A stretch of DNA of 33,562 bases from Bdellovibrio sp. (GCA_020725805.1 DYEF01000052.1:1-33562), one strand, 5' to 3'. Counted from the first letter of the stretch, positions 365-28,439 are shown. Notes: generated by a model from the sequence alone, not told the origin. A program made the numbers and translations.

Positions 365-796
365 ATGAGCTTTGAACCCAGAATCGTAGGCATCCTGTGT
401 AACTGGTGTTCATACACAGGTGCAGACCTTGCAGGTACTTCCAGAATGAAGTATCCGCCCAATGTGCGGGTCGTCAGGGTAATGTGCAGCGGCCGTGTGG
501 ACCCGACCTTTATACTAAAGGCACTCTCGGAAGGTGCCGACGGGGTACTAATTGCAGGTTGTCATCCGGGTGATTGTCATTACATCAATGGCAACATCAA
601 GACACTCAGAAGGTATCCCCTGTTGAAAAAAATGCTTTCGGAATTTGGTGTGGAGGATGAAAGGGTAAGACTCGAGTGGGTATCCGCATCGGAGGGAGAC
701 AGATTTGCCCAAATAGTAAAAGAGATGACCGAAAGCATCAAAAAACTCGGTCCATCCCCGTTTTTGAGAAAAGGTGAAAAGGAGGTGGCATTATGA
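365..796 (+). CDS. mvhD: MvhD-like [2Fe-2S] electron-transfer subunit of the hydrogenase/Hdr complex
   Basis: This 143-residue protein matches the MvhD/FlpD family, which in methanogens carries electrons from the MvhAG hydrogenase to HdrA through a [2Fe-2S] cluster. Cysteines sit at C12, C15 (LCNWC), C41, C66 and C71 (GCHPGDCHY), the pattern expected for the family. The length is normal for a stand-alone MvhD. The ATG at 365 follows a strong AAGGAGG (354-360). The stop overlaps the start of the next gene by four bases (ATGA), so the two are translationally coupled. It is the first gene of the mvhDGA-hdrCB-hdrA operon. Family assignment is firm; the physiological partner is inferred from gene order. 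Confidence 0.92.
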   Translation: MSFEPRIVGILCNWCSYTGADLAGTSRMKYPPNVRVVRVMCSGRVDPTFILKALSEGADGVLIAGCHPGDCHYINGNIKTLRRYPLLKKMLSEFGVEDERVRLEWVSASEGDRFAQIVKEMTESIKKLGPSPFLRKGEKEVAL

Positions 797-1752
797 GTAA
801 GCCGAAACTCGCAATCTATTGGGCTGCCTCCTGTGGCGGCTGTGATGTATCAATACTGGATATTCACGAACATATTCTGGATGTAGACAAGGCATTTGAC
901 CTTGCACTCTGGCCTGTTGCAGCTGATTTCAAATACAAAGATGTGGAGGCCATGCAGGACGGTGAAATTCTTCTGACATTATTCAACGGTGCAATAAGAA
1001 ATTCTGAGAATGAACATATTGCAAAACTTCTGAGGAAGAAGAGTAAAGTTCTCGTAGCATTCGGCTCGTGTGCCCATCTGGGTGGTGTCATAGGTATGGC
1101 AAACCTGAGCAAGAGAGATGAAATTCTGGATACCGTTTACAACAAGTCTGTTTCGACACATAATCCGGAAAGGATAATTCCACAGACTCTCAGCCGGGTA
1201 AAGGAAGGAGAACTCACCCTCCCGAAATTCTATAATTACCTCAGGTCACTTGATCAGGTCACTGATGTGGATTACTATATACCGGGCTGTCCTCCGAATC
1301 CTGAACAGGTCCTCGCAGTAGTTCAGCATATAATCGCAGGCAAGCCTTTGCCTCCAAAGGGGTCTGTATTGGGTGCAGGTGACAAATCCCAGTGCGATGA
1401 ATGTAAGCGCAAAAAGAATGTTAAAAAAATCAGGGAATTCAGGAGAATTGCTACCGCCATTCCTGACCCGGAAATCTGCCTTTTAGAACAGGGTTTCATC
1501 TGTATGGGTCCGGCTACAAGGAGCGGATGCGGTGTAGCCTGTGTAAATGCCGGAGTCCCCTGCAGAGGATGCTACGGTCCCCCGCCGAACGTTCTGGACC
1601 AGGGAGCAAAAATGCTCTCGGCAATTGCATCAGTCATCGACAGCGATAACCCCGACGAAATTAATCAGATCATAAGTCAGGTAGAAGACCCTGTAGGCAC
1701 ATTCTACAGGTTCTCGCTCCCGACTTCACTTCTGAGGAGGTCAAATATATGA
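793..1752 (+). CDS. mvhG: F420-non-reducing [NiFe] hydrogenase small subunit (MvhG-like)
   Basis: This 319-residue protein is a cytoplasmic [NiFe]-hydrogenase small subunit of the MvhG type (group 3c). The proximal-cluster motif AASCGGCD is near residues 11-18, FGSCAHLGG near 90, PGCPPNP near 167, and a Cys-rich C-terminal part (GCGVACVNAGVPCRGCYGPPP, near 245-265) supplies the other cluster ligands. There is no signal peptide or twin-arginine motif, which fits a soluble enzyme. A CDECK motif near 201 adds two further cysteines in a Lys-rich loop. The start overlaps the mvhD-like stop and the stop overlaps the mvhA-like start by four bases, so the three genes are tightly coupled. Confidence 0.93.
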   Translation: MSKPKLAIYWAASCGGCDVSILDIHEHILDVDKAFDLALWPVAADFKYKDVEAMQDGEILLTLFNGAIRNSENEHIAKLLRKKSKVLVAFGSCAHLGGVIGMANLSKRDEILDTVYNKSVSTHNPERIIPQTLSRVKEGELTLPKFYNYLRSLDQVTDVDYYIPGCPPNPEQVLAVVQHIIAGKPLPPKGSVLGAGDKSQCDECKRKKNVKKIREFRRIATAIPDPEICLLEQGFICMGPATRSGCGVACVNAGVPCRGCYGPPPNVLDQGAKMLSAIASVIDSDNPDEINQIISQVEDPVGTFYRFSLPTSLLRRSNI

Positions 1753-3209
1753 AAAAGATAACGATAGACCCTATAACACGTCTGGAAGGACACGGAAAAA
1801 TCGAAATCTTCTTAAATGATGAAGGGGATGTAGAGAACTGTTATTTTCAGATTCCCGAGCTCAGAGGTTTCGAAAAATTCTGTATCGGAAGACCTGTAGA
1901 GGAACTTCCGAGAACAGTATGTAAAATATGCGGTGTCTGTCCCGTTGACCATCACCTTGCATCTGCAAAGGCCGTAGATGCCGTATACAACGTTGACCCT
2001 CCGCCCGCGGCAAAAAAACTCAGAGAACTTTATAAGGCGGCTCATACAGTACACAGCCATGTTGCCCATTTCTATGCCCTTGCCGCGCCTGACTTTGTCC
2101 TTGGACCGGATGCGCCCGCGGCCGAACGGAATGTCCTCGGGCTTGTGAAGAAGGTGGGACTTGAGATAGGAGGACAGGTACTTGCAGTAAGAAAGGCAGC
2201 TCAGAGAATTCAGACTTTGATCGGCGGAGCATGCACACATACAGTATTCTGCGTACCCGGAGGAATATCAAAACCTCTCTCGAAGGAAGAACACAGCGAG
2301 ATACTGAAACTATCTGCAAACTTCGTTGAGTTTGCCAGATTCTCACTGAAACTGTTCGAAGATGTAGTGCTCAAAAACAAGGCCTATGTTGACCTGATTC
2401 TATCTGACCCCTATCAGCTCAGAATTCATAATCTCGGACTTGTAGACGGAAACAACAAGGTCAATTTCTACGACGGCAGACCGAGAATTGTTGATGTAAA
2501 CGGAAAGGAAATTGCCAAATACGAGCCCAGAGATTACTACAAACACATAGGAGAACACGTAGAACCATATTCCTATCTGAAATATCCTTACCTTATGGCA
2601 AAAGGATGGAAAGGTTTTGTCGAGGGAGAAGATTCAGGTGTCTACAGAGCGGCCCCTCTTGCGAGACTGAACGCAGCAGATGGTATGGCTACCCCTCTTG
2701 CACAGGCGGAGTACGAAAAGTTCTTCTCGACTCTCAAAAAGCCCGTTAATTCAACCCTTGCCTTCCATTGGGCAAGACTGGTTGAACTTATGTATGCCTG
2801 CGAACTGACAGTGAAACTTGCAAATGACCCCGAAATTCTAAATCCCGATGTAAGGAGACTACCCACAGAAAAGCCCTCCGAGGGAGTAGGAATTATCGAG
2901 GCTTCAAGAGGGCTTCTGACTCATCACTATAAGACTGATGAGAAGGGGATTGTAACAGCCGTCAATCTGATAGTCGGAACTACAAACAATAACGCCGCAA
3001 TAACGATGTCCATAAAGAAGGCGGCAACCGGACTTATAAAAAAAGGGAAAGTAGTCTCCGACGGCATACTGAATATGGTCGAGATGGCTTTCAGGGCGTA
3101 TGACCCGTGTTTCTCCTGTGCCACACACTCACTTCCCGGAAAGATGCCGCTTATTGTCAATATCAGGGGAAGCAACGGAGAAATTTTTCAAACCTTAAAG
3201 CGAGATTAA
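1749..3209 (+). CDS. mvhA: F420-non-reducing [NiFe] hydrogenase large subunit (MvhA-like)
   Basis: This 486-residue catalytic subunit carries the [NiFe] site. The N-terminal ligand motif is KICGVCPVDH (C61, C64, H68) and the C-terminal motif is DPCFSCATH (C454, C457, H460). Both are complete, and Cys rather than selenocysteine is used. A 26-residue tail (461-486) follows H460. In this family the tail is removed by a dedicated endopeptidase after nickel insertion. No maturation protease or hyp gene lies in the window, so these must be elsewhere. The start overlaps the mvhG-like stop (ATGA). Gene order with mvhD/hdr genes supports group 3c, H2 oxidation coupled to heterodisulfide-reductase-type bifurcation. 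Confidence 0.95.
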   Translation: MKKITIDPITRLEGHGKIEIFLNDEGDVENCYFQIPELRGFEKFCIGRPVEELPRTVCKICGVCPVDHHLASAKAVDAVYNVDPPPAAKKLRELYKAAHTVHSHVAHFYALAAPDFVLGPDAPAAERNVLGLVKKVGLEIGGQVLAVRKAAQRIQTLIGGACTHTVFCVPGGISKPLSKEEHSEILKLSANFVEFARFSLKLFEDVVLKNKAYVDLILSDPYQLRIHNLGLVDGNNKVNFYDGRPRIVDVNGKEIAKYEPRDYYKHIGEHVEPYSYLKYPYLMAKGWKGFVEGEDSGVYRAAPLARLNAADGMATPLAQAEYEKFFSTLKKPVNSTLAFHWARLVELMYACELTVKLANDPEILNPDVRRLPTEKPSEGVGIIEASRGLLTHHYKTDEKGIVTAVNLIVGTTNNNAAITMSIKKAATGLIKKGKVVSDGILNMVEMAFRAYDPCFSCATHSLPGKMPLIVNIRGSNGEIFQTLKRD

Positions 3210-3220
3210 CGGAGGACTAT

Positions 3221-4369
3221 ATGAATTACTATACACCATTTCTTGAAGTAACAAAGACGATACTGGATGCAGGAGGTGAAGACCTCAAAAAGTGTTATCA
3301 GTGCGGGACGTGTACTGCTGTATGTCCGTGGGGAAGTGTAAGGGAGTTCAGCCCAAGATACATCTTTAAGCTTGCCCAGCACGGACTGGAAGGATATGAA
3401 GGAGACGAACTCTGGCTGTGCTCCACCTGTAAAACGTGCGTTGACAGATGTCCCAGAGGTGTGGGAATCATTGATGTATTTACATCGATGCGTTCAATAA
3501 TTGCACAGACCGGACTTATACCACCGACACTGCGTTCGGTCCTGGGTTCCATTAACTCAAACGGAAATCCTTGGGCCGGCAAACGTGAAGAGAGAAATAT
3601 ATGGGCAAAAGAGCTGGGTCTTAAAAACTTTTCCGGCGAGACTACAGAGTATCTCTACTTCTCCTGCTGTGCCCCGTCCTATGACCCAAGGACCAAAAAG
3701 ATTGCAGTCGCCACTGCGAGAGTATTGAAAGAAGCGGGAGTGGATTTCGGTATCTTCGGAAAGGAAGAGTCCTGTTGCGGAGAATCTATCAAAAAGACCG
3801 GCGATAATACAACCTACGAAAAACTCCTGAACTCCAATATTTCACTGTTCAATTCAAAGGGAGTAAAAAAGATAATCGCCCAGTCCCCGCATTGTCTGTA
3901 TACATTCAGAAATGAGTATCCTGCCCACTCCGGTAATTACGAACAGGTTCATTATACGCAGGTCCTCGCAGAATTAATAAAGGGAGGAAAACTAAAACCC
4001 AAAAAGGAGTTCAGAAAGAAGGTAACTTACCACGACCCCTGTTATCTCGGAAGACACAGCGGAATCTACGAAGAACCGAGAGATATTCTGAAATCAGTTC
4101 CCGGACTTGAATTTGCTGAAATGATCAGGATAAAGGAACAGTCCTTCTGCTGCGGAGGCGGCGGTGCAAGGATGTGGATGGAGACACCGAAGGAGGAGAG
4201 ATTCGGTGTAATGAGAATCAAAGAGGCTCTCTCGGTCGGGGCAAATGTCATTGCCACAGCCTGCCCCTACTGTATACAGATGCTCGAAGACGGCAGAACT
4301 GCTCTCGGAGTCGAAGACAGAATCGAAGTAATGGATATCTCCGAGATACTTTCTGCAACAATGTTTTAA
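3221..4369 (+). CDS. Fused HdrC-HdrB (HdrD-like) iron-sulfur subunit
   Basis: This 382-residue protein joins an HdrC-like and an HdrB-like half. The N-terminal half has two [4Fe-4S] motifs: CYQCGTCTAVCP (C25, C28, C31, C35) and CSTCKTCVDRCP (C67, C70, C73, C77). The C-terminal half has two CCG-type domains. The first (FSCCAPSYD near 148, ESCCGES near 187) ends in SPHC, with Ser where HdrB has the first Cys of CxxC. The second is complete (DPCYLG, FCCGGGGARMW, ACPYC). By analogy with HdrB/HdrD, the complete domain would hold the non-cubane cluster that reduces a disulfide or related acceptor. An upstream in-frame ATG at 3107 lies inside mvhA; the start at 3221 has GGAGG at 3211-3215 and is preferred. 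Confidence 0.9.
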   Translation: MNYYTPFLEVTKTILDAGGEDLKKCYQCGTCTAVCPWGSVREFSPRYIFKLAQHGLEGYEGDELWLCSTCKTCVDRCPRGVGIIDVFTSMRSIIAQTGLIPPTLRSVLGSINSNGNPWAGKREERNIWAKELGLKNFSGETTEYLYFSCCAPSYDPRTKKIAVATARVLKEAGVDFGIFGKEESCCGESIKKTGDNTTYEKLLNSNISLFNSKGVKKIIAQSPHCLYTFRNEYPAHSGNYEQVHYTQVLAELIKGGKLKPKKEFRKKVTYHDPCYLGRHSGIYEEPRDILKSVPGLEFAEMIRIKEQSFCCGGGGARMWMETPKEERFGVMRIKEALSVGANVIATACPYCIQMLEDGRTALGVEDRIEVMDISEILSATMF

Positions 4370-4379
4370 GGAGGTTTTT

Positions 4380-6392
4380 ATGGATAAACCAAGAATTGGT
4401 GTTTTTATATGCCACTGCGGTACAAATATCGCAGGCAAAGTCAATATTGAAGAGGTCAAGAAATATGCATCGACGCTCGGGGATGTTGTATTTGCTACCG
4501 ATTATAAGTTTATGTGCTCTGACCCGGGACAGGAACTCGTCGGAAAAGCAATCAGAGAACATAAATTAAACAGAGTTGTCGTGGCAGCCTGCTCTCCCCT
4601 GATGCACGAATCCACTTTCAGGAAAGTCTGTATGCTTGCCGGACTAAACCAGTACCTCTTTCAGATGGCAAATATCAGGGAACAGTGTTCGTGGGTCACC
4701 GAGGACCCGGAGCTCGCAACAGTTAAGGCCAAGGCAATAATCTCCGGTGCCGTTGCCAAATCCAGATATCTTGAACCGTTAAATATCAAAGAGGTCACCA
4801 TAAATCCTTCGGTTCTGGTCATAGGAGGAGGTATTGCCGGAATTCAGGCTGCACTTGAATGTGCCGAGGCAGGGAATAAGGTTATCCTTGTAGAGAAGAC
4901 CCCCTCGATCGGCGGACATATGGCTCAGTTCGACAAGACATTCCCGACACTCGACTGTTCAGCCTGTATCCTTACACCCAAGATGACATCCGTCGGACAG
5001 CACAACAATATTGAACTGATGACATATTCGGAAGTAAAGGAGGTAAGCGGATATGTAGGCAATTTCAAGGTAAAGATACTTCAGAAGGCAAAATATGTGG
5101 ACCACAGTAAATGCACAGGTTGCGGAATCTGTATGGAAAAATGTCCCTACAAAGCCCCGAATGAATTCGAGGAAGGACTCGCACAACGGAAAGCCATTTA
5201 TACACCATTCCCACAGGCAGTACCGAACAAACCCGTAATCGATAAGGAGACCTGTGTATACTTCAAGACCGGCAAATGCCGTGCCTGTGAAAAATTCTGT
5301 GAGCCCAAGGCTGTAAACTTCAATGATACAGACAGGGAAATAGAAGTTAATGTGGGTGCAATAATTGTTGCAACGGGTTATGACCTGTTTGATACACGCT
5401 CTGTCTCACAACTCGGATACAAGAAGTATGACAATGTCTATACCGGGCTGGAGTTTGAAAGGATTAATAATGCCGCAGGTCCTACAGCAGGAAAGATTCA
5501 GCTGAAAGATGGCAGAACACCAAAATCGATAGCTATTCTCCACTGCATAGGTTCAAGGGACAAGAACTATCACGAATACTGTTCAAGGGTCTGCTGTATG
5601 TACGCACTAAAATATGCACATCTGATTAAGGAAAAAACAGAATCGGATGTCTACAACTGCTATATCGATATGAGATGCTTCGGAAAAGGATATGAGGAGT
5701 TCTACCACAGGCTAACCGAAGAGGGTGTTGATTTTATCAGAGGCAAGGCTGTATGCGTACTCGATTATAACGATGCAAAGACACTCTATCCGGATATGGT
5801 GGAGGCCCTCGGTATAACCGACAGCGAAGAGGACAGGAAGAAACTCTTCGTAAGGACAGAGGATACACTTCTCAAGAAGACGATGTGGCTCCCCGTAGAT
5901 ATGGTAATTCTGTGTAATGCAATGAAGTCCCGCTCCGATGCAAAAGATATCTCTAGACTGCTCAATATCAGTATCGGCAAAGACGGATTCTTCCTTGAAA
6001 AGCATCCGAAACTCGCACCTGTAAGCACTGCGACAGACGGTGTATTCCTTGCAGGAGCCTGTCAGGGGCCAAAGGATATTCCTGATACAGTAGCACAGGC
6101 CTCTGCAGCTGCCGCTGCCGCAATATCTCTTGTCCAGAGGAACAAGGTAGTTATAGAATCGGCAACTGCATACGTTAATGAGGAACTCTGTTCTGGCTGC
6201 AAACTATGCAATGATATATGTCCGTTTACAGCCATTTCATTCGATGAATCCAAGAACAGGTCCGTAGTAAACGATGCTCTCTGCAAGGGTTGCGGGACCT
6301 GTGCATCAACCTGTCCGTCTTCTGCCATCAAGGCAAATCACTTTACGGACAGACAGATTTTTGCAGAGATTGAAGGTTTATTGAATTTGTGA
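4380..6392 (+). CDS. hdrA: HdrA-like flavin/iron-sulfur electron-bifurcating subunit
   Basis: This 670-residue protein has the HdrA layout. An N-terminal domain carries CHCGTN (11-16) and C46. An FAD-binding fold with VIGGGIAG starts near 147. An inserted Cys motif LDCSAC lies near 190. A ferredoxin-like motif CTGCGICMEKCP is near 245, followed by CRACEKFC near 300. Two C-terminal [4Fe-4S] motifs, CSGCKLCNDICP near 603 and CKGCGTCASTCP near 635, complete it. HdrA family members bifurcate hydride-derived electrons at FAD, sending one to ferredoxin and one to HdrBC. There is no fused MvhD domain, consistent with the separate mvhD-like gene. A strong AGGAGG precedes the ATG by seven bases. The gap from the hdrCB-like gene is ten bases, so they share an operon. 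Confidence 0.94.
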   Translation: MDKPRIGVFICHCGTNIAGKVNIEEVKKYASTLGDVVFATDYKFMCSDPGQELVGKAIREHKLNRVVVAACSPLMHESTFRKVCMLAGLNQYLFQMANIREQCSWVTEDPELATVKAKAIISGAVAKSRYLEPLNIKEVTINPSVLVIGGGIAGIQAALECAEAGNKVILVEKTPSIGGHMAQFDKTFPTLDCSACILTPKMTSVGQHNNIELMTYSEVKEVSGYVGNFKVKILQKAKYVDHSKCTGCGICMEKCPYKAPNEFEEGLAQRKAIYTPFPQAVPNKPVIDKETCVYFKTGKCRACEKFCEPKAVNFNDTDREIEVNVGAIIVATGYDLFDTRSVSQLGYKKYDNVYTGLEFERINNAAGPTAGKIQLKDGRTPKSIAILHCIGSRDKNYHEYCSRVCCMYALKYAHLIKEKTESDVYNCYIDMRCFGKGYEEFYHRLTEEGVDFIRGKAVCVLDYNDAKTLYPDMVEALGITDSEEDRKKLFVRTEDTLLKKTMWLPVDMVILCNAMKSRSDAKDISRLLNISIGKDGFFLEKHPKLAPVSTATDGVFLAGACQGPKDIPDTVAQASAAAAAAISLVQRNKVVIESATAYVNEELCSGCKLCNDICPFTAISFDESKNRSVVNDALCKGCGTCASTCPSSAIKANHFTDRQIFAEIEGLLNL

Positions 6393-21592: not shown

Positions 21593-22522
21593 CTATTTCT
21601 TCTTTATCCCGAAGATATAAAGAAGTATTGCCTTCTGAACATGCAATCTGTTCTCTGCCTGATCGAATACTATCGACTGCTCTGAATCTATCACCTCATC
21701 GGTTACTTCCTCACCCCTGTGCGCCGGCAGACAGTGCATAAATACGGCATCCTTTTTGGCAAATGCCATAAGCCTTGTGTTTACCTGATATGGGGAGAAT
21801 ATCTGTCTTCTCTTGGCAGTCTCGGCCTCCTGACCCATCGATGTCCAGACATCTGTATAAACCACATCCACATTGTTGACCGCTGCAATGGGGTCATCGG
21901 TCAGTTCGATATTGACACCGTTCGAAACGGCATCTGCATAGGCATTCTTAAGCACCTCGACCTTCGGCTCATATCCGCGCGGAGTTGCAATGTTGATTTC
22001 TACACCGAACTTTGCCGCTCCGTAAATGAGAGAATGACAGACATTATTGCCATCACCGACATAGGCGAGCTTGAGACCTTTGAGCTTATGTTTGTGCTCT
22101 CTGATTGTAAAATAATCAGCAAGTCCCTGACAGGGGTGTGACAGGTCCGTAAGGGCATTTATAACGGGTTTGGAACAATTTCTAGCAAGAGTCTCGATGA
22201 TATTGTGACCAAATGTCCTGCAGACGATTCCGTCAACCCACCTTTCAAGATTCTTGGCCACATCTGAAACTGCCTCACGTCTGCCAAGCTGAAACTCATT
22301 CGGAGAGAAATAAATGACATTCCCGCCCATCTGCATAATACCAACCTCAAATGTAGCCTTGGTTCTCAGAGATGGTTTTTCGAATATCAGCGCAATGGTC
22401 TTCCCCGCAAGAGCACTCTTGTAAACATTTGGCCGCTTCTTGATGTTGGTAGCAAGATCAAGAATGTCATTGAGTTCTTTGGTACTGAAATCATAAAGAC
22501 TCAAAAAATCTCTCTTTTTCAC
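21593..22522 (-). CDS. argF: Ornithine carbamoyltransferase
   Basis: This 309-residue enzyme joins carbamoyl phosphate and ornithine to give citrulline, or runs in reverse in arginine fermentation. Signatures are the carbamoyl-phosphate loop EKPSLRTKATFE, the HPCQGLADYFT motif, and the ornithine-binding FMHCLPAHRGEEV near the C-terminus, so it is an OTC rather than aspartate carbamoyltransferase or YgeW. The frame is open to a TTG at 22528, but AGGAG sits only two bases from that TTG and seven from the GTG at 22522, so I choose GTG. Carbamate kinase lies just upstream in the same direction, which favours the catabolic (ArcB-like) direction or carbamoyl phosphate supply from carbamate; the sequence alone does not settle it. 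Confidence 0.93.
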   Translation of the reverse strand: MKKRDFLSLYDFSTKELNDILDLATNIKKRPNVYKSALAGKTIALIFEKPSLRTKATFEVGIMQMGGNVIYFSPNEFQLGRREAVSDVAKNLERWVDGIVCRTFGHNIIETLARNCSKPVINALTDLSHPCQGLADYFTIREHKHKLKGLKLAYVGDGNNVCHSLIYGAAKFGVEINIATPRGYEPKVEVLKNAYADAVSNGVNIELTDDPIAAVNNVDVVYTDVWTSMGQEAETAKRRQIFSPYQVNTRLMAFAKKDAVFMHCLPAHRGEEVTDEVIDSEQSIVFDQAENRLHVQKAILLYIFGIKKK

Positions 22523-22544
22523 ACCCAAACTCCTTTCTTAAAAA

Positions 22545-23531
22545 TTATTTACTGTCCAGAAAACCAAATCTTGTATTCTTGATAATCCTCGTCCCCGCCT
22601 TCCTCTCGACTGCCTCCGGCAGGGCAGCTGCATTGGTAATCAGTGCCTCCTCTCCGCCGTTCATCAGAAAATCAATCGAGGCCTCGATCTTGGGGCCCAT
22701 TGAACCCTTCGGAAACTGCCCTTCCCTGTAAAGGTCTATCGCCTCGATGAGTGTAAGGGTATCAAGGGCCTTCTGGTCTGTCTTCCCGAAGTTTCTGTAA
22801 ACACAGCTCACCTCTGTGAGAATAATGAAGAGGTCAGCCCTGACGTTGCGCGCAATCAGGCTCGCGATATAATCCTTGTCGATGACCGCCTCACTACCCT
22901 TGTATCTGAGCCCGTCCTTGTAAACCGGGATACCTCCTCCTCCACCGGCTATAACGATATTACCTGTCTCGGCAAGGTGCCTGATAATGTCAATCTCAAG
23001 TATGGCAAGGGGCTTCGGCGAAGGGACGACCCGTCTGTAACCTCTGCCGGAATCCTCTATCATCTTATATCCGTTTTCATTCATAAGAGCCTCGGCCCTC
23101 TCTTTTGCAAAGAACGGACCAATAGGCTTTGTAGGATTATTGAAAGCCGGGTCGGCTGAATCGACAACTACGGTTGTAAGCACCGTACAGACAGGTTTTT
23201 CAATATTTTCATAAACCATTCTGTTGCGCAAAGAGACCTGCAAAAGGTATCCCATAGAGCCCTGAGTCTCGGCAACACAGGCATCCAGAGTCTGAGGGGG
23301 CACACTCGCAGAGGCTGCTTCCTGTCTGATAAGAGAGGCACCAACCTGCGGTCCATTTCCGTGAACTACCACCAGTTCATACCCGTTCTTGATTATTGAC
23401 ATCAGCACCATTGCCGCTTCTTCAGCATTCTGCCACTGCTCCTTTATCGTCCCCTTCTCCTTCGATTTAATCAGGGCATTTCCTCCGAAAGCAACTACCG
23501 CTATCTTTCTCTTTCTCTCTTTTGCACTCAT
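22545..23531 (-). CDS. arcC: Carbamate kinase
   Basis: This 328-residue enzyme of the amino-acid-kinase fold interconverts carbamoyl phosphate plus ADP with carbamate plus ATP. It shows VAFGGNALIK near 13, VVHGNGPQVGASLIRQE near 54, TQGSMGYLLQ near 89, AGGGGGIPV near 195, DKDYIASLIARNV near 220, and the C-terminal FPKGSMGPKIEASIDFL. The length is slightly above the usual 310. It starts two bases after the stop of the cPGS-like gene and ends 22 bases before the OTC start, so the three form an operon. No arginine deiminase is in the window. Confidence 0.94.
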   Translation of the reverse strand: MSAKERKRKIAVVAFGGNALIKSKEKGTIKEQWQNAEEAAMVLMSIIKNGYELVVVHGNGPQVGASLIRQEAASASVPPQTLDACVAETQGSMGYLLQVSLRNRMVYENIEKPVCTVLTTVVVDSADPAFNNPTKPIGPFFAKERAEALMNENGYKMIEDSGRGYRRVVPSPKPLAILEIDIIRHLAETGNIVIAGGGGGIPVYKDGLRYKGSEAVIDKDYIASLIARNVRADLFIILTEVSCVYRNFGKTDQKALDTLTLIEAIDLYREGQFPKGSMGPKIEASIDFLMNGGEEALITNAAALPEAVERKAGTRIIKNTRFGFLDSK

Positions 23532-23533
23532 CC

Positions 23534-24868
23534 TTACTTCCTCTTCTGTGATTTTAATACTCTGTTTTCAATGATATACTTAAGACCCAGAGCCTCCTTC
23601 TCCTGAAGTTCATACCTAACCCTCTTGTAAGGCTTGTTAATTTTGAGCAGCCTGCCGAGGTCGATCGGTGTCGCCACCACTACAAGGTCACAGGGAGTAT
23701 CGTTTATAGTCTTTTCAAGTTCCTTCATCTGGGTCTTTGAATATCCCATAGCCGGAAGTAGAGTTCCGATATGAGGATACTTTTCAAATGTCTTCTTTAT
23801 CGAACCGGTGGCATAAGGTCTCGGGTCGATAATCTCATGGGCTCCGTATTGTCTTGCGGCAACAATACCTGCACCATATTTCATCTCGCCGTGTGTAAGT
23901 GTCGGGCCATCCTCTACCACAAGCACCTTTTTACCCTTTATATCTTCCGGTTTATCGATTATAATCGGGGAATCGGCGTGTATTATGACAGCCTTGGGAT
24001 TCTTGAGTTTTATGTTATTTTCTACGATTTCGATATTTTCATGAGTGGTGCTGTCAACCTTATTTATCACCACAACATCTGCCCTGTAGAGATTTGCAGT
24101 CCCGGGATAATAAAGGAGTTCATGTCCGGGTCTGTGGGGGTCAACGACCACAACCTCGAGGTCCGGTATATAAAACGGGAGGTCATTATTTCCTCCGTCC
24201 CAGATAATAATATCGGACTCCTTCTCTGCCTCCTTAAGGATATCCAGATAATCTACACCTGCATAAACGATGATACCTGCGCTGATATGGGGTTCGTATT
24301 CCTCGCGTTCCTCGATAGTGCACTCGTGCTTGTCGAGGTCCTCAAGAACCGCAAACCTCTGGACTCTCTGCTTGTTCAGGTCCCCGTAAGGCATAGGATG
24401 TCTTATAACTGTAACCCTGAGTCCCAGCTCTTTGAGAACTGTTGCAATCTTTCGCGTGGTCTGTGATTTACCGCAACCCGTTCTGACCGCGCATATTGAA
24501 ATGACCGGTTTGCTGCTCTTTATCATAGACTTTTCGGCCCCGATAAAACGGAAATCGGCACCGGCAGCAATAACCGAACAGGCCTTGTCCATTACGTAGT
24601 TGTGAGATACATCGGAATAGGCAAAGACCACCTCGTCGACCTTTTTCTCCCTTACTATCTTTATCAGATCTGCCTCAGAGAGTATAGGAATCCCGTCAGG
24701 ATAGAGAGAACCGGCAAGTTCAGGAGGATACTTCCTCCCGTCTATATCAGGTATCTGTGTAGCAGTAAATGCCACTACATCATAATCCGGATTATCCCTG
24801 TAATAAACATTGAAGTTGTGGAAATCCCTCCCCGCTGCTCCCATAATAACTACTCTCTTCTTTGACAT
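23534..24868 (-). CDS. Cyclic 2,3-diphosphoglycerate synthetase-like ATPase
   Basis: This 444-residue protein resembles archaeal cyclic 2,3-diphosphoglycerate synthetase. It has an N-terminal Rossmann-like part (RVVIMGAAGRDFHNFNVYYR, then VVAFTATQIPDIDGRKYPP), a P-loop AVRTGCGKS (128-136), IIWDGGNNDLPF and VVVINKVDS nucleotide-binding segments, and a C-terminal DLGRLLKINKPYKRVRYEL region typical of the family. In thermophilic archaea the product is a thermoprotectant. Bacterial members are common beside carbamate kinase and their reaction is not established. The ATG at 24868 has AAGGAGGT upstream and fits the family start; an upstream in-frame codon at 24892 is less likely. Confidence 0.85.
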   Translation of the reverse strand: MSKKRVVIMGAAGRDFHNFNVYYRDNPDYDVVAFTATQIPDIDGRKYPPELAGSLYPDGIPILSEADLIKIVREKKVDEVVFAYSDVSHNYVMDKACSVIAAGADFRFIGAEKSMIKSSKPVISICAVRTGCGKSQTTRKIATVLKELGLRVTVIRHPMPYGDLNKQRVQRFAVLEDLDKHECTIEEREEYEPHISAGIIVYAGVDYLDILKEAEKESDIIIWDGGNNDLPFYIPDLEVVVVDPHRPGHELLYYPGTANLYRADVVVINKVDSTTHENIEIVENNIKLKNPKAVIIHADSPIIIDKPEDIKGKKVLVVEDGPTLTHGEMKYGAGIVAARQYGAHEIIDPRPYATGSIKKTFEKYPHIGTLLPAMGYSKTQMKELEKTINDTPCDLVVVATPIDLGRLLKINKPYKRVRYELQEKEALGLKYIIENRVLKSQKRK

Positions 24869-24956
24869 AAAGACCTCCTTATATATAAACATCCTGCATT
24901 AAAAAACAATGCAAAGATTCAATCCTCATCAGCGGAGGCCCAGCAGCACCCTGAGA

Positions 24957-25324: not shown

Positions 25325-26647
25325 TTAAATATGGCCGTAGACACCCCTGACTTCGGCATATCTGAGTTCTCTGACAATCCTGCTGACTATCGAAAGAAAA
25401 CCATTGAATCCAATATAAGGTTCTTCGTAAACACTGTGGGAAAAATAGGAAGGGAATCCTATCTCCAGTGCGGCCTTCCCGCTTCCGATAAAATAGGAAC
25501 TCATATCGCTGTTTCCGACATACAGGTCGATTTTTTTCTCCTTTACAAGTGCAAGTCCGTCCTCAAAGACATCATTAATCGAAGGTTCAAAAATAATATC
25601 AGGAGAATCATTGTCGAGATATCTCTTCTTGTCCGAAGTGTTCGGAATAATGGCCTTATATATCTTTGCACCAAGCAGACAGAGGGAATTTTTCAGCGGC
25701 ACAAAAAGGACAGGGTCTCCGCAATAAACGATTTTCAGCCCGTTAAAATATTGCTCAATAAGCGGTTCCATCCTTCTTGCAACCTTTTTTATTTCACTAT
25801 CGATAAATCCTGAGGCATTCTTAATCCCGAAGTGGGCAGCTACATCACCAAGCATCTTTGCCGTCGGCTCTAACCCTACAGGATAATCAGACTTCAGAAG
25901 GGGGAGATTCAGCCTCTCTGCAAGGATTGAAGCCGCCTCACCACCATACCCGAAAGAGACTATAAGTTCCGCATCCGATATAGCCTTGAGGTCGTTATAT
26001 CTTCCGCCGGCCGGCCATACAGAACAGAGGTCAACCCCGATTCCGGCAAATATCCTTTTCAGTTCAAAAATATTGGCAAAATTATCATATTCGTTTCTGT
26101 CGAAAAGATATCCCACAATCCCGACCGACCTTTTCTTCACCTTCCCCTTCTTCAGGCCGATTCCGGATGCAATGACCTTCAGAAATTCCGAATAACCGTC
26201 CATCCAGTCCCCCGACAGGGATTTGTTGGCAAACTCAAATGCAGGCTTACGGTATTTCAGGACAATCTCCCGTAAAAGTCTTTTATAATCAACTGCTGTT
26301 ACCGCCGCCATCGGCATAGGTGTAATTCCGAGGGCACCAGTAAAAGGCTGCGAGGCGATTTTTTCGAGAAACTTTAGTATCTTTGCCTCCCTTGAACCTG
26401 CCATCATAACAGGATGCAGCGCTGTATTCCCTATACGATGATAGCCCGAGAGATTAGTAAGGTCAGAATAAAAATCCTGATTGAGCGTAATATACTGGGT
26501 CTTCATATACGAACAGTCCGGCCCGTCGACCAGAAGATAGAAGTCCCTCACTGCATTGACTCCGAGATACAGACCGACCATATACGGGCTCATAAGCCGC
26601 TGCGAAAACCTTCGGTTATCTTTTTTTACATTTTTATTCTTCTTCAT
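25325..26647 (-). CDS. Nitrogenase-component-1-like protein, second subunit
   Basis: This 440-residue protein belongs by motif to the nitrogenase component 1 fold (NifD/K, NifE/N, BchN/B). The region YLGVNAVRDFYLLVDGPDC (27-45) aligns with the family segment whose Cys binds the P-cluster or [4Fe-4S] cluster, giving C45. RSVGIVGYLFDRNEYDNFANIFELKR region (173-198), then AELIVSFGYGGEAASILAER, and the C-terminal IDLYVGNSDMSSYFIG, GFPSYFSHSVYEEPYIGFNG follow the family order. The Cys expected near 110 is replaced (GITPMPMAAV). H404 stands near the place of the FeMo-cofactor His of NifD, although the spacing differs. It overlaps the end of the 601-residue partner by 14 bases, so the two likely form a heteromer. 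It is not true NifDK. Confidence 0.75.
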   Translation of the reverse strand: MKKNKNVKKDNRRFSQRLMSPYMVGLYLGVNAVRDFYLLVDGPDCSYMKTQYITLNQDFYSDLTNLSGYHRIGNTALHPVMMAGSREAKILKFLEKIASQPFTGALGITPMPMAAVTAVDYKRLLREIVLKYRKPAFEFANKSLSGDWMDGYSEFLKVIASGIGLKKGKVKKRSVGIVGYLFDRNEYDNFANIFELKRIFAGIGVDLCSVWPAGGRYNDLKAISDAELIVSFGYGGEAASILAERLNLPLLKSDYPVGLEPTAKMLGDVAAHFGIKNASGFIDSEIKKVARRMEPLIEQYFNGLKIVYCGDPVLFVPLKNSLCLLGAKIYKAIIPNTSDKKRYLDNDSPDIIFEPSINDVFEDGLALVKEKKIDLYVGNSDMSSYFIGSGKAALEIGFPSYFSHSVYEEPYIGFNGFLSIVSRIVRELRYAEVRGVYGHI

Positions 26648-28439
26648 ATCTGCCAGAATAATCCCTTCTCAGATAGTGATAATATTTTGAAAAGAATCTG
26701 TTGCCACAACTTTCTATAATCTTTTTCATAGAATAGAGCGCCCCTTCAAAACCCACCTCAAAGTCAGTAAGCGACAGGGCATTCTTGCCGGAGGATGAAA
26801 TTCTCCAGTCACTGGAGTGATTCGAAAAGACGAACTGAGAGCGGCTGCCTCTTAAAAGTCTCATCATTGTATCAAAGGAATCAAAGAATCTTATCTCAAA
26901 ATTGTGGTACCCGCTGAGAACCTGCATAATCTTATCCGAACTCCCCCTGGCCTCTTCACGGCTTCCTGCCTTTATCAGTATCTCGATTCTTGAACCCGCC
27001 TCCATAAAAAACGGCAGCAGCGGCACTCCCCAGCATCTGGCTGAATCTGTAAGATATGCCTCTTCATCTTTCCGTATGACGAAAATAACCCCGATATCTT
27101 TCATCTTTTCCTTCAGAGACTCATATATTTCCACAGTTTCGGGATTAATATATTTCATCAAATCACTTTCAGATATTCCGATATCAAACAACTTTGCAAC
27201 CTCCCTTATCCATCTGACAGTGCCACGAAAACCGTAAGGTGCATCCGGTGCCGCATATCTGTGGGAAGAGGCCGAATTTAACTGGGAATACAGATGACTC
27301 CAGAGCGCATTAGGTTTGAATATATCTATCCCTCCTTCAAAATATCTTCTCAGTGTCTTCGGTGAGACATCAGGGATAGCTGCAGCGTTAACCTTTATCC
27401 CGATACTCTGAAGAACAGCAGTCAGTTTTTCAAGATAGACGTCCTTTTCGTAACCCAAAAGATTGACAACATTTTTCCTGCGGTTCTTTTTCAGGCGAGA
27501 TTTTTTATTATTCGACAAAAAAAGATTTTTGAGCACGACTTCCATAGACTGCGGTGTTACGGTGAGATACAAAAGATTCTTTCCCCTGCTCTTTGCCTGC
27601 CTGACAACGGATTCGACATCCTCACCGGTAACAACCGGAGTGCAGGTATTCGAGAGAAAGATATTCTTCCCTTTGACCTTTGAGAAGGCATAATCCAGCA
27701 CCTCCCTGACCTTGTTGTGTCCCATAATTATATCCTTTTCTCTCAGGTCAGTCGAAAAGAATTTATTTACATCCGGCAGTTCATCCCTTCTGATATTCTT
27801 ATACTTCTCAGGGTTACCCGACAACCATGGATATCTGACAAGAAATCTCACGATTCTCAGATCCAGATTCGGTTTTAAGGATACACACTCTATATCAGAA
27901 TGCTGAATAAAAACACAGTTTTCATATATATTGACTGAATCCAGCTGACCCCTTGCAAACTCCCCTTCGGCAAAGAAATTTGCATAGAGGTCCCTGCCGC
28001 CCCAGCTGTCGAGATGATTCTCCGGCCTGTCAGGATTCTCGAATGAAGGGAGAGAGGCAGACGGATTTCCGAGTTCGGGGTCCTGACGAAGTATCCCTGT
28101 TATATCATCAAATGTCCTGTCTGAGAGGTCGAGTGAAAGAATATGAGATGCAAAATCCTCATTATTGTCCGGGCTGCTGTAATAAATATCCAGATATTTC
28201 GTCTTTACCAGAGACTGCTGGGTATCAATCCGTTTTGCAATATACAGGGTAATCTTCCTTTTTTCATTATCTTTGGGAAGGATATCGAGCACAATCCGGT
28301 TCCCTATCCAGCCGATCGCCGATATTTCAAAACCGGTATTTTCAAGCTTAAGCAGGGAAGTAAATCTATCAATGCTGTACTTTCCGCAGGCAAGTCTGAG
28401 CCCTTCAATATCCTTTTGATTTTCAAGATACCTGTGCAA
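26634..28439 (-). CDS. Nitrogenase-component-1-like protein with unknown N-terminal domain
   Basis: This 601-residue protein has an unrecognised N-terminal domain (1 to about 165), then a nitrogenase component 1 fold. ENCVFIQHSDIECVS (173-187) sits where NifK has its VHGSQGC cluster segment. STDLREKDIIMGHNKV (229-244) and KNIFLSNTCTPVVTGEDVESV (258-278) match the NifK-type signature with the cluster Cys at C266. NLLGY (326-330), PNALWSHLYSQLNS, APDAPYGFRGTVRWI (397-411) and the C-terminal DFEVGFEGALYSMKKII (559-575) continue in family order. Candidate cluster ligands are C175, C185 and C266. It starts with TTG behind CGAGGTG. The substrate is unknown, and no NifH/BchL-like ATPase is in the window. 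Confidence is moderate for the fold and low for function. Confidence 0.75.
   Translation of the reverse strand: MHRYLENQKDIEGLRLACGKYSIDRFTSLLKLENTGFEISAIGWIGNRIVLDILPKDNEKRKITLYIAKRIDTQQSLVKTKYLDIYYSSPDNNEDFASHILSLDLSDRTFDDITGILRQDPELGNPSASLPSFENPDRPENHLDSWGGRDLYANFFAEGEFARGQLDSVNIYENCVFIQHSDIECVSLKPNLDLRIVRFLVRYPWLSGNPEKYKNIRRDELPDVNKFFSTDLREKDIIMGHNKVREVLDYAFSKVKGKNIFLSNTCTPVVTGEDVESVVRQAKSRGKNLLYLTVTPQSMEVVLKNLFLSNNKKSRLKKNRRKNVVNLLGYEKDVYLEKLTAVLQSIGIKVNAAAIPDVSPKTLRRYFEGGIDIFKPNALWSHLYSQLNSASSHRYAAPDAPYGFRGTVRWIREVAKLFDIGISESDLMKYINPETVEIYESLKEKMKDIGVIFVIRKDEEAYLTDSARCWGVPLLPFFMEAGSRIEILIKAGSREEARGSSDKIMQVLSGYHNFEIRFFDSFDTMMRLLRGSRSQFVFSNHSSDWRISSSGKNALSLTDFEVGFEGALYSMKKIIESCGNRFFSKYYHYLRRDYSGRYEEE

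Follow-up and report, generated by a model that had tools for sequence, protein, structure and literature searches.

The window analysed here is a 33,562-nucleotide stretch of DNA from Bdellovibrio sp. (GCA_020725805.1 DYEF01000052.1:1-33562), which forms the entire contig C47 of a 3.29 Mb Myxococcota genome (115 contigs, 97.9% complete). On its minus strand it carries two adjacent genes, here called D and K, whose products are of the nitrogenase component 1 type. Together with H, a NifH-type protein encoded elsewhere in the genome, they make up a set (HDK) that we connect, through its relatives, with the His-Xaa-Ser (Hxs) peptide system. The gene pair has the following features:

25325..26647, minus strand, K subunit, nitrogenase component 1 type (440 aa)
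26634..28439, minus strand, D subunit, nitrogenase component 1 type (601 aa, TTG start)
26634..26647, minus strand, D/K overlap of 14 bases (from the open reading frame (ORF) coordinates)
28020-28439, minus strand, extra N-terminal domain of D (residues 1-140), which the component 1 fold follows

The original prediction, made from the window alone, described two adjacent, overlapping genes of the component 1 type, and the ORFs, the profile scores and the fold models all agree with it. Against PF00148 (gathering score 28.6 bits), outside which the prediction held that neither protein should fall, K scored 135.4 bits (E 3.1e-39) and D 79.8 bits (E 2.4e-22), placing both inside the family; a search of the whole genome returned D and K as its only PF00148 genes. 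The AlphaFold model of K (pLDDT 93.6) has the nitrogenase component 1 fold, with NifN, NifK, AnfK, VnfK and dark-operative protochlorophyllide oxidoreductase (DPOR) chains as fold matches in the PDB (TM 0.75-0.81), and that of D (pLDDT 88.9) matched NifE, MarD, NifD and BchN. Because the PF00148 scores lie far above the gathering score and both models have the component 1 fold, chance is excluded as the source of the D/K identity. The overlap of the two genes, which is likely to couple their translation, is also found in the congener (L026 9579-11378 and 8273-9604), where the D homologue is 61% identical; homologues in other Myxococcota and in Elusimicrobiota are 20-36% identical.

Residues 1-140 of D, which AlphaFold modelled confidently over about residues 14-125, gave no family match. 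The domain is common to the nearest Myxococcota clade, in which D has about 610-640 residues, and many other D homologues, chiefly those of Elusimicrobiota, are shorter. 

Conservation of the putative cluster ligands was counted over 72 D and 75 K homologues:

27885..27887, minus strand, codon of D-Cys185 in the motif HxxxEC, equivalent to NifD Cys88 (Cys in 72/72 and in all ten D-side references)
27888..27890, minus strand, codon of D-Glu184, candidate non-Cys cluster ligand (Glu in 71/72; Gly in NifD and NifE)
27642..27644, minus strand, codon of D-Cys266 in the motif NTCxP, equivalent to NifD Cys154 (Cys in 72/72)
27915..27917, minus strand, codon of D-Cys175, proposed earlier as a ligand and not conserved (Cys in 5/72; mostly Val, Phe or Leu)
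26513..26515, minus strand, codon of K-Cys45, equivalent to NifK Cys95, NifN Cys44 and BchB Asp36 (Cys in 73/75)

The cysteines that had been listed at D 175, 185 and 266 and at K 45 are all present in the translations, and K indeed lacks a Cys near residue 110: Pro112 stands at the site of the third P-cluster Cys of NifK, and this position is Pro in 66/75 homologues. What did not hold up is the 3+1 ligand arrangement built on these residues. Since C175 is not conserved in the family, whereas C185, C266 and K-C45 are near-invariant, the set becomes 2+1 plus a possible Glu. The K-C45 column is Cys in NifK, NifN and BchZ and Asp in BchB, and D-H180 is His in 66/72 homologues. From this pattern of conservation, a [4Fe-4S] cluster whose fourth ligand is Glu, or in which one iron site is open, would be the natural inference. 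A conserved third D Cys near residue 167 was considered and rejected, as the column is Asp in 21/72 (the window's own clade), Cys in five and otherwise Ser, Glu, Val or other residues; a Cys-to-Asp swap at this place, suggested by an eight-sequence alignment, was likewise unsupported as a rule in the 72-sequence set. Separately, a C-terminal column at D C578 (window 26706-26708, numbering counted from the C-terminus) is Cys in 56/72 D homologues.

By model scores, ligand pattern and the references sampled, the pair fits no characterised branch. NCBIfam equivalogs for Nif, Vnf, Anf, Bch and Cfb proteins gave scores of no more than about 40 bits, where the cut-offs range from roughly 270 to over 900, and every score is below about a tenth of its cut-off: the BchNB models TIGR01279 and TIGR01278 gave 38 bits or less (cut-offs 420 and 490), the NifE model 40 bits (cut-off 505) and the CfbD model TIGR03282 24.9 bits (cut-off 268.4). 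The tree references comprised NifDKEN, Vnf, BchNBYZ and group-IV-like Nfl from Treponema and Chlorohelix, with no verified Mar sequence. In this tree, of the kind that the prediction had proposed, D (99/94) and K (100/100) form clades of their own that stand apart from all reference groups, the group-IV-like ones included. Some relatives have a second type of pair, D2/K2, each subunit of which is sister to the corresponding one of D and K; together, K and K2 group with BchN/BchY at 98/84, on long branches, and we do not lean on this grouping. That D and K are members of a characterised branch (BchNB, NifEN, CfbD, MarDK or IsrDK) is hardly credible: the many weak model matches and the top PDB sequence match of D, the methylthio-alkane reductase MarD (E 7e-8), would speak for it, but the scores, the differing ligand patterns and the separate clades speak against it.

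The second pair was seen at L028:7025-9620, L033:1361-4185, L043, L069 and L090. D2 has three Cys and K2 one; D2/K2 adjoins the HDK set in several loci and is the only pair seen in L033. Four Elusimicrobiota genomes (G213, G209, G328 and G425) have seven or eight K-family matches each, several of them inside one 60-kb stretch, and numbers of up to eight suggest several related steps.

A named group does, however, appear to accommodate the pair. Meheust et al. 2020 (ISME J 14:2907, doi 10.1038/s41396-020-0716-1), the work cited for the 'group VI' nitrogenase homologues, reportedly describes co-occurring radical S-adenosylmethionine (SAM) proteins and Myxococcales hosts. A genome scan found 64 loci, which belong to Myxococcota, Elusimicrobiota and a small number of other groups, and the family of D and K shows the HDK set and radical SAM suite in Elusimicrobia and Myxococcales by which the group is defined in the citing passages and, reportedly, in that abstract. 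The passages concerned call the Elusimicrobiota homologues 'potentially involved in tetrapyrrole modification' (PMC11257099) and speak of 'putative tetrapyrrole cofactor biosynthesis genes' (PMC9391474). The hosts, the gene set and, reportedly, the radical SAM suite are alike, so that apparently the same clade is meant, and D and K are most likely members of this uncharacterised group of Elusimicrobia and Myxococcales. The earlier statement that the pair resembles no named branch is therefore right for NifDK, NifEN, BchNB, BchYZ and CfbD on scores, ligands and tree and for MarDK on the ligand pattern, and needs amending for group VI as the citing passages present it (PMC9391474, PMC11257099).

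It had also been stated that no NifH-like gene lies nearby, and a genome search for an orphan NifH/BchL ATPase had been recommended. None was present among the scanned window genes, but a genome profile search found a single true NifH-type gene, H (271 aa, PF00142 E 1.2e-79), flanked by unrelated genes on contig C85, and six Myxococcota relatives have an H homologue next to D and K or close to them. The Walker A motif GKGGxGKS and the cluster cysteines C95 and C131 are intact in H and invariant in 30/30 homologues. H scored under every curated cut-off, the nearest being CfbC (284 vs 402 bits) and then NifH (281 vs 394 bits), and the H tree, in which one clade has a support of 43/5, leaves its placement unsettled.

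The flanks of the relatives' HDK genes are rich in radical SAM genes, and two of the encoded proteins, rSa and rSb, adjoin HDK in both phyla. ORF clustering and repeat searches revealed that several HDK loci also encode HxsB and HxsD-like proteins, along with small proteins that have (His-Gly-Ser)n repeats at their ends; these peptides, in Myxococcota and Elusimicrobiota alike, exceed the curated HxsA4 cut-off. An HxsD-like ORF near HxsB in L055 scored 45.3 against a cut-off of 50. Hence, the earlier remark that the neighbours give no substrate holds for the window, while the neighbours in relatives point to a His-Xaa-Ser peptide system. Low-complexity 'VRAVGPV' frames near HDK proved to be antisense readings of HxS repeat peptides and were dropped. 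Elsewhere, in L128 and L159/L160, small proteins that carry only two or three HxS motifs (HASHASGSKHNS, HTSHTSDGWF) are encoded near HxsB-like genes and may represent further kinds of Hxs peptide.

Radical SAM enzymes depend on electrons of low potential, and given the strong linkage with many of them HDK might be an ATP-driven electron source that keeps its co-located radical SAM enzymes reduced. We consider this quite unlikely, as ferredoxin or flavodoxin usually supplies such enzymes and HxsB is present in genomes without HDK; moreover, we know of no nitrogenase-like complex that acts as a donor of this kind.

The window's own genome has an Hxs locus on contig C42 that encodes HxsA4, HxsB, a double radical SAM protein and a 67-aa ORF. 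As in type 4 His-Xaa-Ser systems, HxsA4 (L110:7793-8173, 126 aa, core HCSHASHGS...GSW) and HxsB exceed the curated cut-offs, with 84.7 bits vs 55 and 530.8 bits vs 370, respectively. The double radical SAM protein is the nearest to HxsC4 in this genome and lies under the cut-off (195.5 vs 500 bits), so that it is HxsC4-like only; the 67-aa ORF stands at the HxsD place beside HxsB and gave no family match. Homologues of rSa and rSb, 63% and 50% identical, are encoded on contigs C88 and C83. In the window's genus H, D/K and the Hxs genes are unlinked, as would be expected if D and K were decaying relics that had lost their function on being split from H and Hxs. This explanation is very improbable in our judgement, for the near-invariant residues of D, K and H are intact and the congener keeps D, K, HxsA4 and HxsB.

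We then counted K and HxsB in 195 Myxococcota genomes and in 199 genomes of an Elusimicrobiota carrier's phylum, nearly all the relatives being metagenome-assembled genomes. Among the Myxococcota, K was present in 13 genomes and HxsB in 41, with HxsB in 12/13 genomes carrying K vs 29/182 lacking it; the sole exception among the carriers is 70% complete. The second sample had K in 16 genomes and HxsB in 31 (15/16 vs 16/183). Pooled over the two phyla, HxsB accompanied K in 27/29 genomes and occurred in 45/365 of those without K, and a separate contig scan, which overlaps in part with the two samples, found HxsB in 48/49 K-carrying genomes. Furthermore, K and HxsB share a contig, 2.3-30.8 kb apart, in 13 of the 27 genomes that have both, where a rough estimate of the random expectation is about one or none.

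The dependence runs one way: genomes with K nearly always have HxsB, while HxsB without K is common, chiefly in one Myxococcaceae-like family whose peptides, with some exceptions, are mostly short HRS/HSS types and not long HGS repeats. Such asymmetry would also be seen if the Hxs system made, from its peptide, a cofactor or metal carrier for HDK to use on some other substrate, and the poly-His sequence of the HxsA4 core is of the metal-binding kind. Nevertheless, the radical SAM genes recur with HDK more strongly than any other substrate-handling gene, and the hydrophobic, export-like segment in HxsA4 leaders would seem more in keeping with a product that is exported than with a cofactor used in the cytosol. 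We regard this reverse direction as unlikely.

Taken together, homology, ligands, the presence of H and the linkage to Hxs genes lead us to favour, with some reserve, the view that HDK serves the HxsA4 pathway as an ATP-driven, low-potential reductase. Because of the genomic linkage between HDK and Hxs, HxsA4, or something that the radical SAM enzymes make from it, is the most likely substrate. Of the two components of this ATP-dependent, nitrogenase-like reductase, D and K would form the catalytic one (DK), and the unlinked H would be its electron donor. By analogy with the nitrogenase family, from which these steps are drawn, an H dimer would hydrolyse ATP and pass an electron through its [4Fe-4S] cluster (C95, C131) to a single small Fe-S cluster between D and K. 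This cluster would be coordinated by D-C185, D-C266 and K-C45, and its fourth position would be D-E184 or an open iron site. DK would have no cluster resembling the iron-molybdenum cofactor (FeMo-co), and the electron would go from the interface cluster to a substrate in the DK cavity. The absence of an equivalent of NifD Cys275, a column that is Pro in 56/72 D homologues and never Cys, counts for this reading. HDK would then work in a type-4 His-Xaa-Ser pathway with the radical SAM enzymes HxsB, HxsC4-like, rSa and rSb, acting after or together with the radical SAM steps, and the group it reduces most likely belongs to the poly(His-Gly-Ser) peptide of HxsA4 or to an intermediate that arises from this peptide. 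What the data show directly is the homology, the conservation of the ligands, the presence of H and the genomic linkage with Hxs in two phyla; we infer the type of cluster, the transfer of electrons, this order of steps, the reaction and the substrate.

Several observations weigh against the assignment of HDK to the HxsA4 pathway. DK, H and Hxs occupy three separate contigs of the window's own genome, so the link between DK and Hxs there rests on relatives. No HxS peptide was found near HxsB in 9 of 27 Hxs loci inspected in K-carrying genomes; two of these nine were read through and have rSa- or HxsC-like radical SAM genes beside HxsB. The Fisher p-values for the association of K and HxsB, 2e-8 in Myxococcota and 3e-13 in Elusimicrobiota, are optimistic because the genomes are related, although the pattern repeats in two phyla. 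HDK must be dispensable for some Hxs systems, as HxsB occurs without K in Myxococcaceae-type genomes. Finally, we know of no chemistry for any Hxs system, and the reaction is for that reason not defined.

Among the known systems, BchLNB (DPOR) is like HDK in having an H protein, a two-subunit component 1, no FeMo-co ligand and, as predicted for DK, a small interface cluster, and the Asp ligand of BchB has its counterpart in the Cys of K. However, BchN gives three Cys whereas D has two conserved Cys and K one, the score was 38 bits vs a cut-off of 420, and no (bacterio)chlorophyll context was seen around D/K. NifEN and NifDK share the fold, with K-C45 at NifN Cys44 and D-C185 and D-C266 at NifD Cys88 and Cys154, but D/K has neither the Cys275 equivalent nor a third conserved N-terminal D Cys, and its genome has a single PF00148 pair. 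Counted as D plus K, the putative ligands are 2+1 plus Glu here, against 3+3 in Nif, and 3+1 in NifEN and BchNB. The Mar enzyme, in which H and DK likewise occur with a radical SAM gene, has a 3+3, six-Cys P-cluster, and Cys270 and His429 hold an [Fe8S9C] cluster (PMC12552129); the six P-cluster Cys and Cys270 are not all present in D/K. The isethionate reductase IsrBHDK also combines H, DK, a radical SAM protein and an incomplete Cys set, but with one Cys on D and three on K (PMC11423573), against two and one here. CfbD acts on Ni-sirohydrochlorin, while the window's genome has neither HemB nor HemC.

This last point bears on the function published for group VI. HDK could be a tetrapyrrole reductase, reducing a porphyrin- or corrin-like macrocycle for a new cofactor. 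A tetrapyrrole role has been proposed for the group, as reported second-hand in PMC9391474 and PMC11257099, and the grouping of K beside BchN/BchY, on its long branches, the best score of H with CfbC, still below the cut-off, and B12-type radical SAM proteins in some HDK loci are in keeping with it. The HDK neighbourhoods that were examined hold no recognisable tetrapyrrole gene. ALAD (HemB) is required for all tetrapyrrole synthesis. It was absent from 14 of 59 K-carrying genomes, 12 of which also lack HemC (porphobilinogen deaminase), and all 12 retain HxsB; HemB and HemC are both missing from the window's own genome and from the congener (97-98% complete). A self-made tetrapyrrole substrate is unlikely in these genomes because both enzymes are absent. 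ALAD is present in the other 45, and the argument is thus limited to the minority without it, which includes the window's genus; ALAD-minus genomes may also take up a finished tetrapyrrole. On balance we find the tetrapyrrole reading doubtful. The linkage to HxsA4 and HxsB and the several carriers unable to make tetrapyrroles set our results apart from the guess made for group VI in the passages cited above.

Two other groups of genes in the window deserve mention. Four genes at 793-6392 on the plus strand, with matches to Oxidored_q6, the NiFe large subunit, CCG/Fer4 and FAD/Fer4, resemble a [NiFe] hydrogenase plus heterodisulfide-reductase-like complex; if electron-bifurcating, it could be a source of low-potential ferredoxin. 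At 21593-24892 on the minus strand, ornithine carbamoyltransferase, carbamate kinase and a 452-aa P-loop protein, the last with no match among curated families, are encoded in a row.

We know of no nitrogenase-like partner of a His-Xaa-Ser system, and the open-access library searched has no paper that contains both 'His-Xaa-Ser' and 'nitrogenase'; on this general knowledge and this absence, the co-occurrence of K and Hxs is new as far as known. Some of the most demanding low-potential reductions in biology are the work of nitrogenase-like enzymes, and every new function has so far been unexpected. It is conceivable, though we advance it only tentatively, that HDK is the first nitrogenase-fold reductase to act on a ribosomally made peptide, reducing HxsA4 or radical SAM crosslinks on it by means of an interface cluster of a new kind, 2+1 Cys (plus Glu), and that its diversification has given single Elusimicrobiota genomes as many as eight paralogous sets of component 1. 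Tetrapyrrole modification, the sole function proposed for the clade so far, misfits those carriers that are unable to make tetrapyrroles. Our results suggest that HDK works on the HxsA4 peptide pathway rather than, as others have proposed, on chlorophyll-like pigments. The linkage to HxsA4 offers the His-Xaa-Ser system, whose product is apparently unknown, a candidate set of enzymes, and it gives a nitrogenase-like enzyme that had been an orphan a concrete substrate that can be tested.

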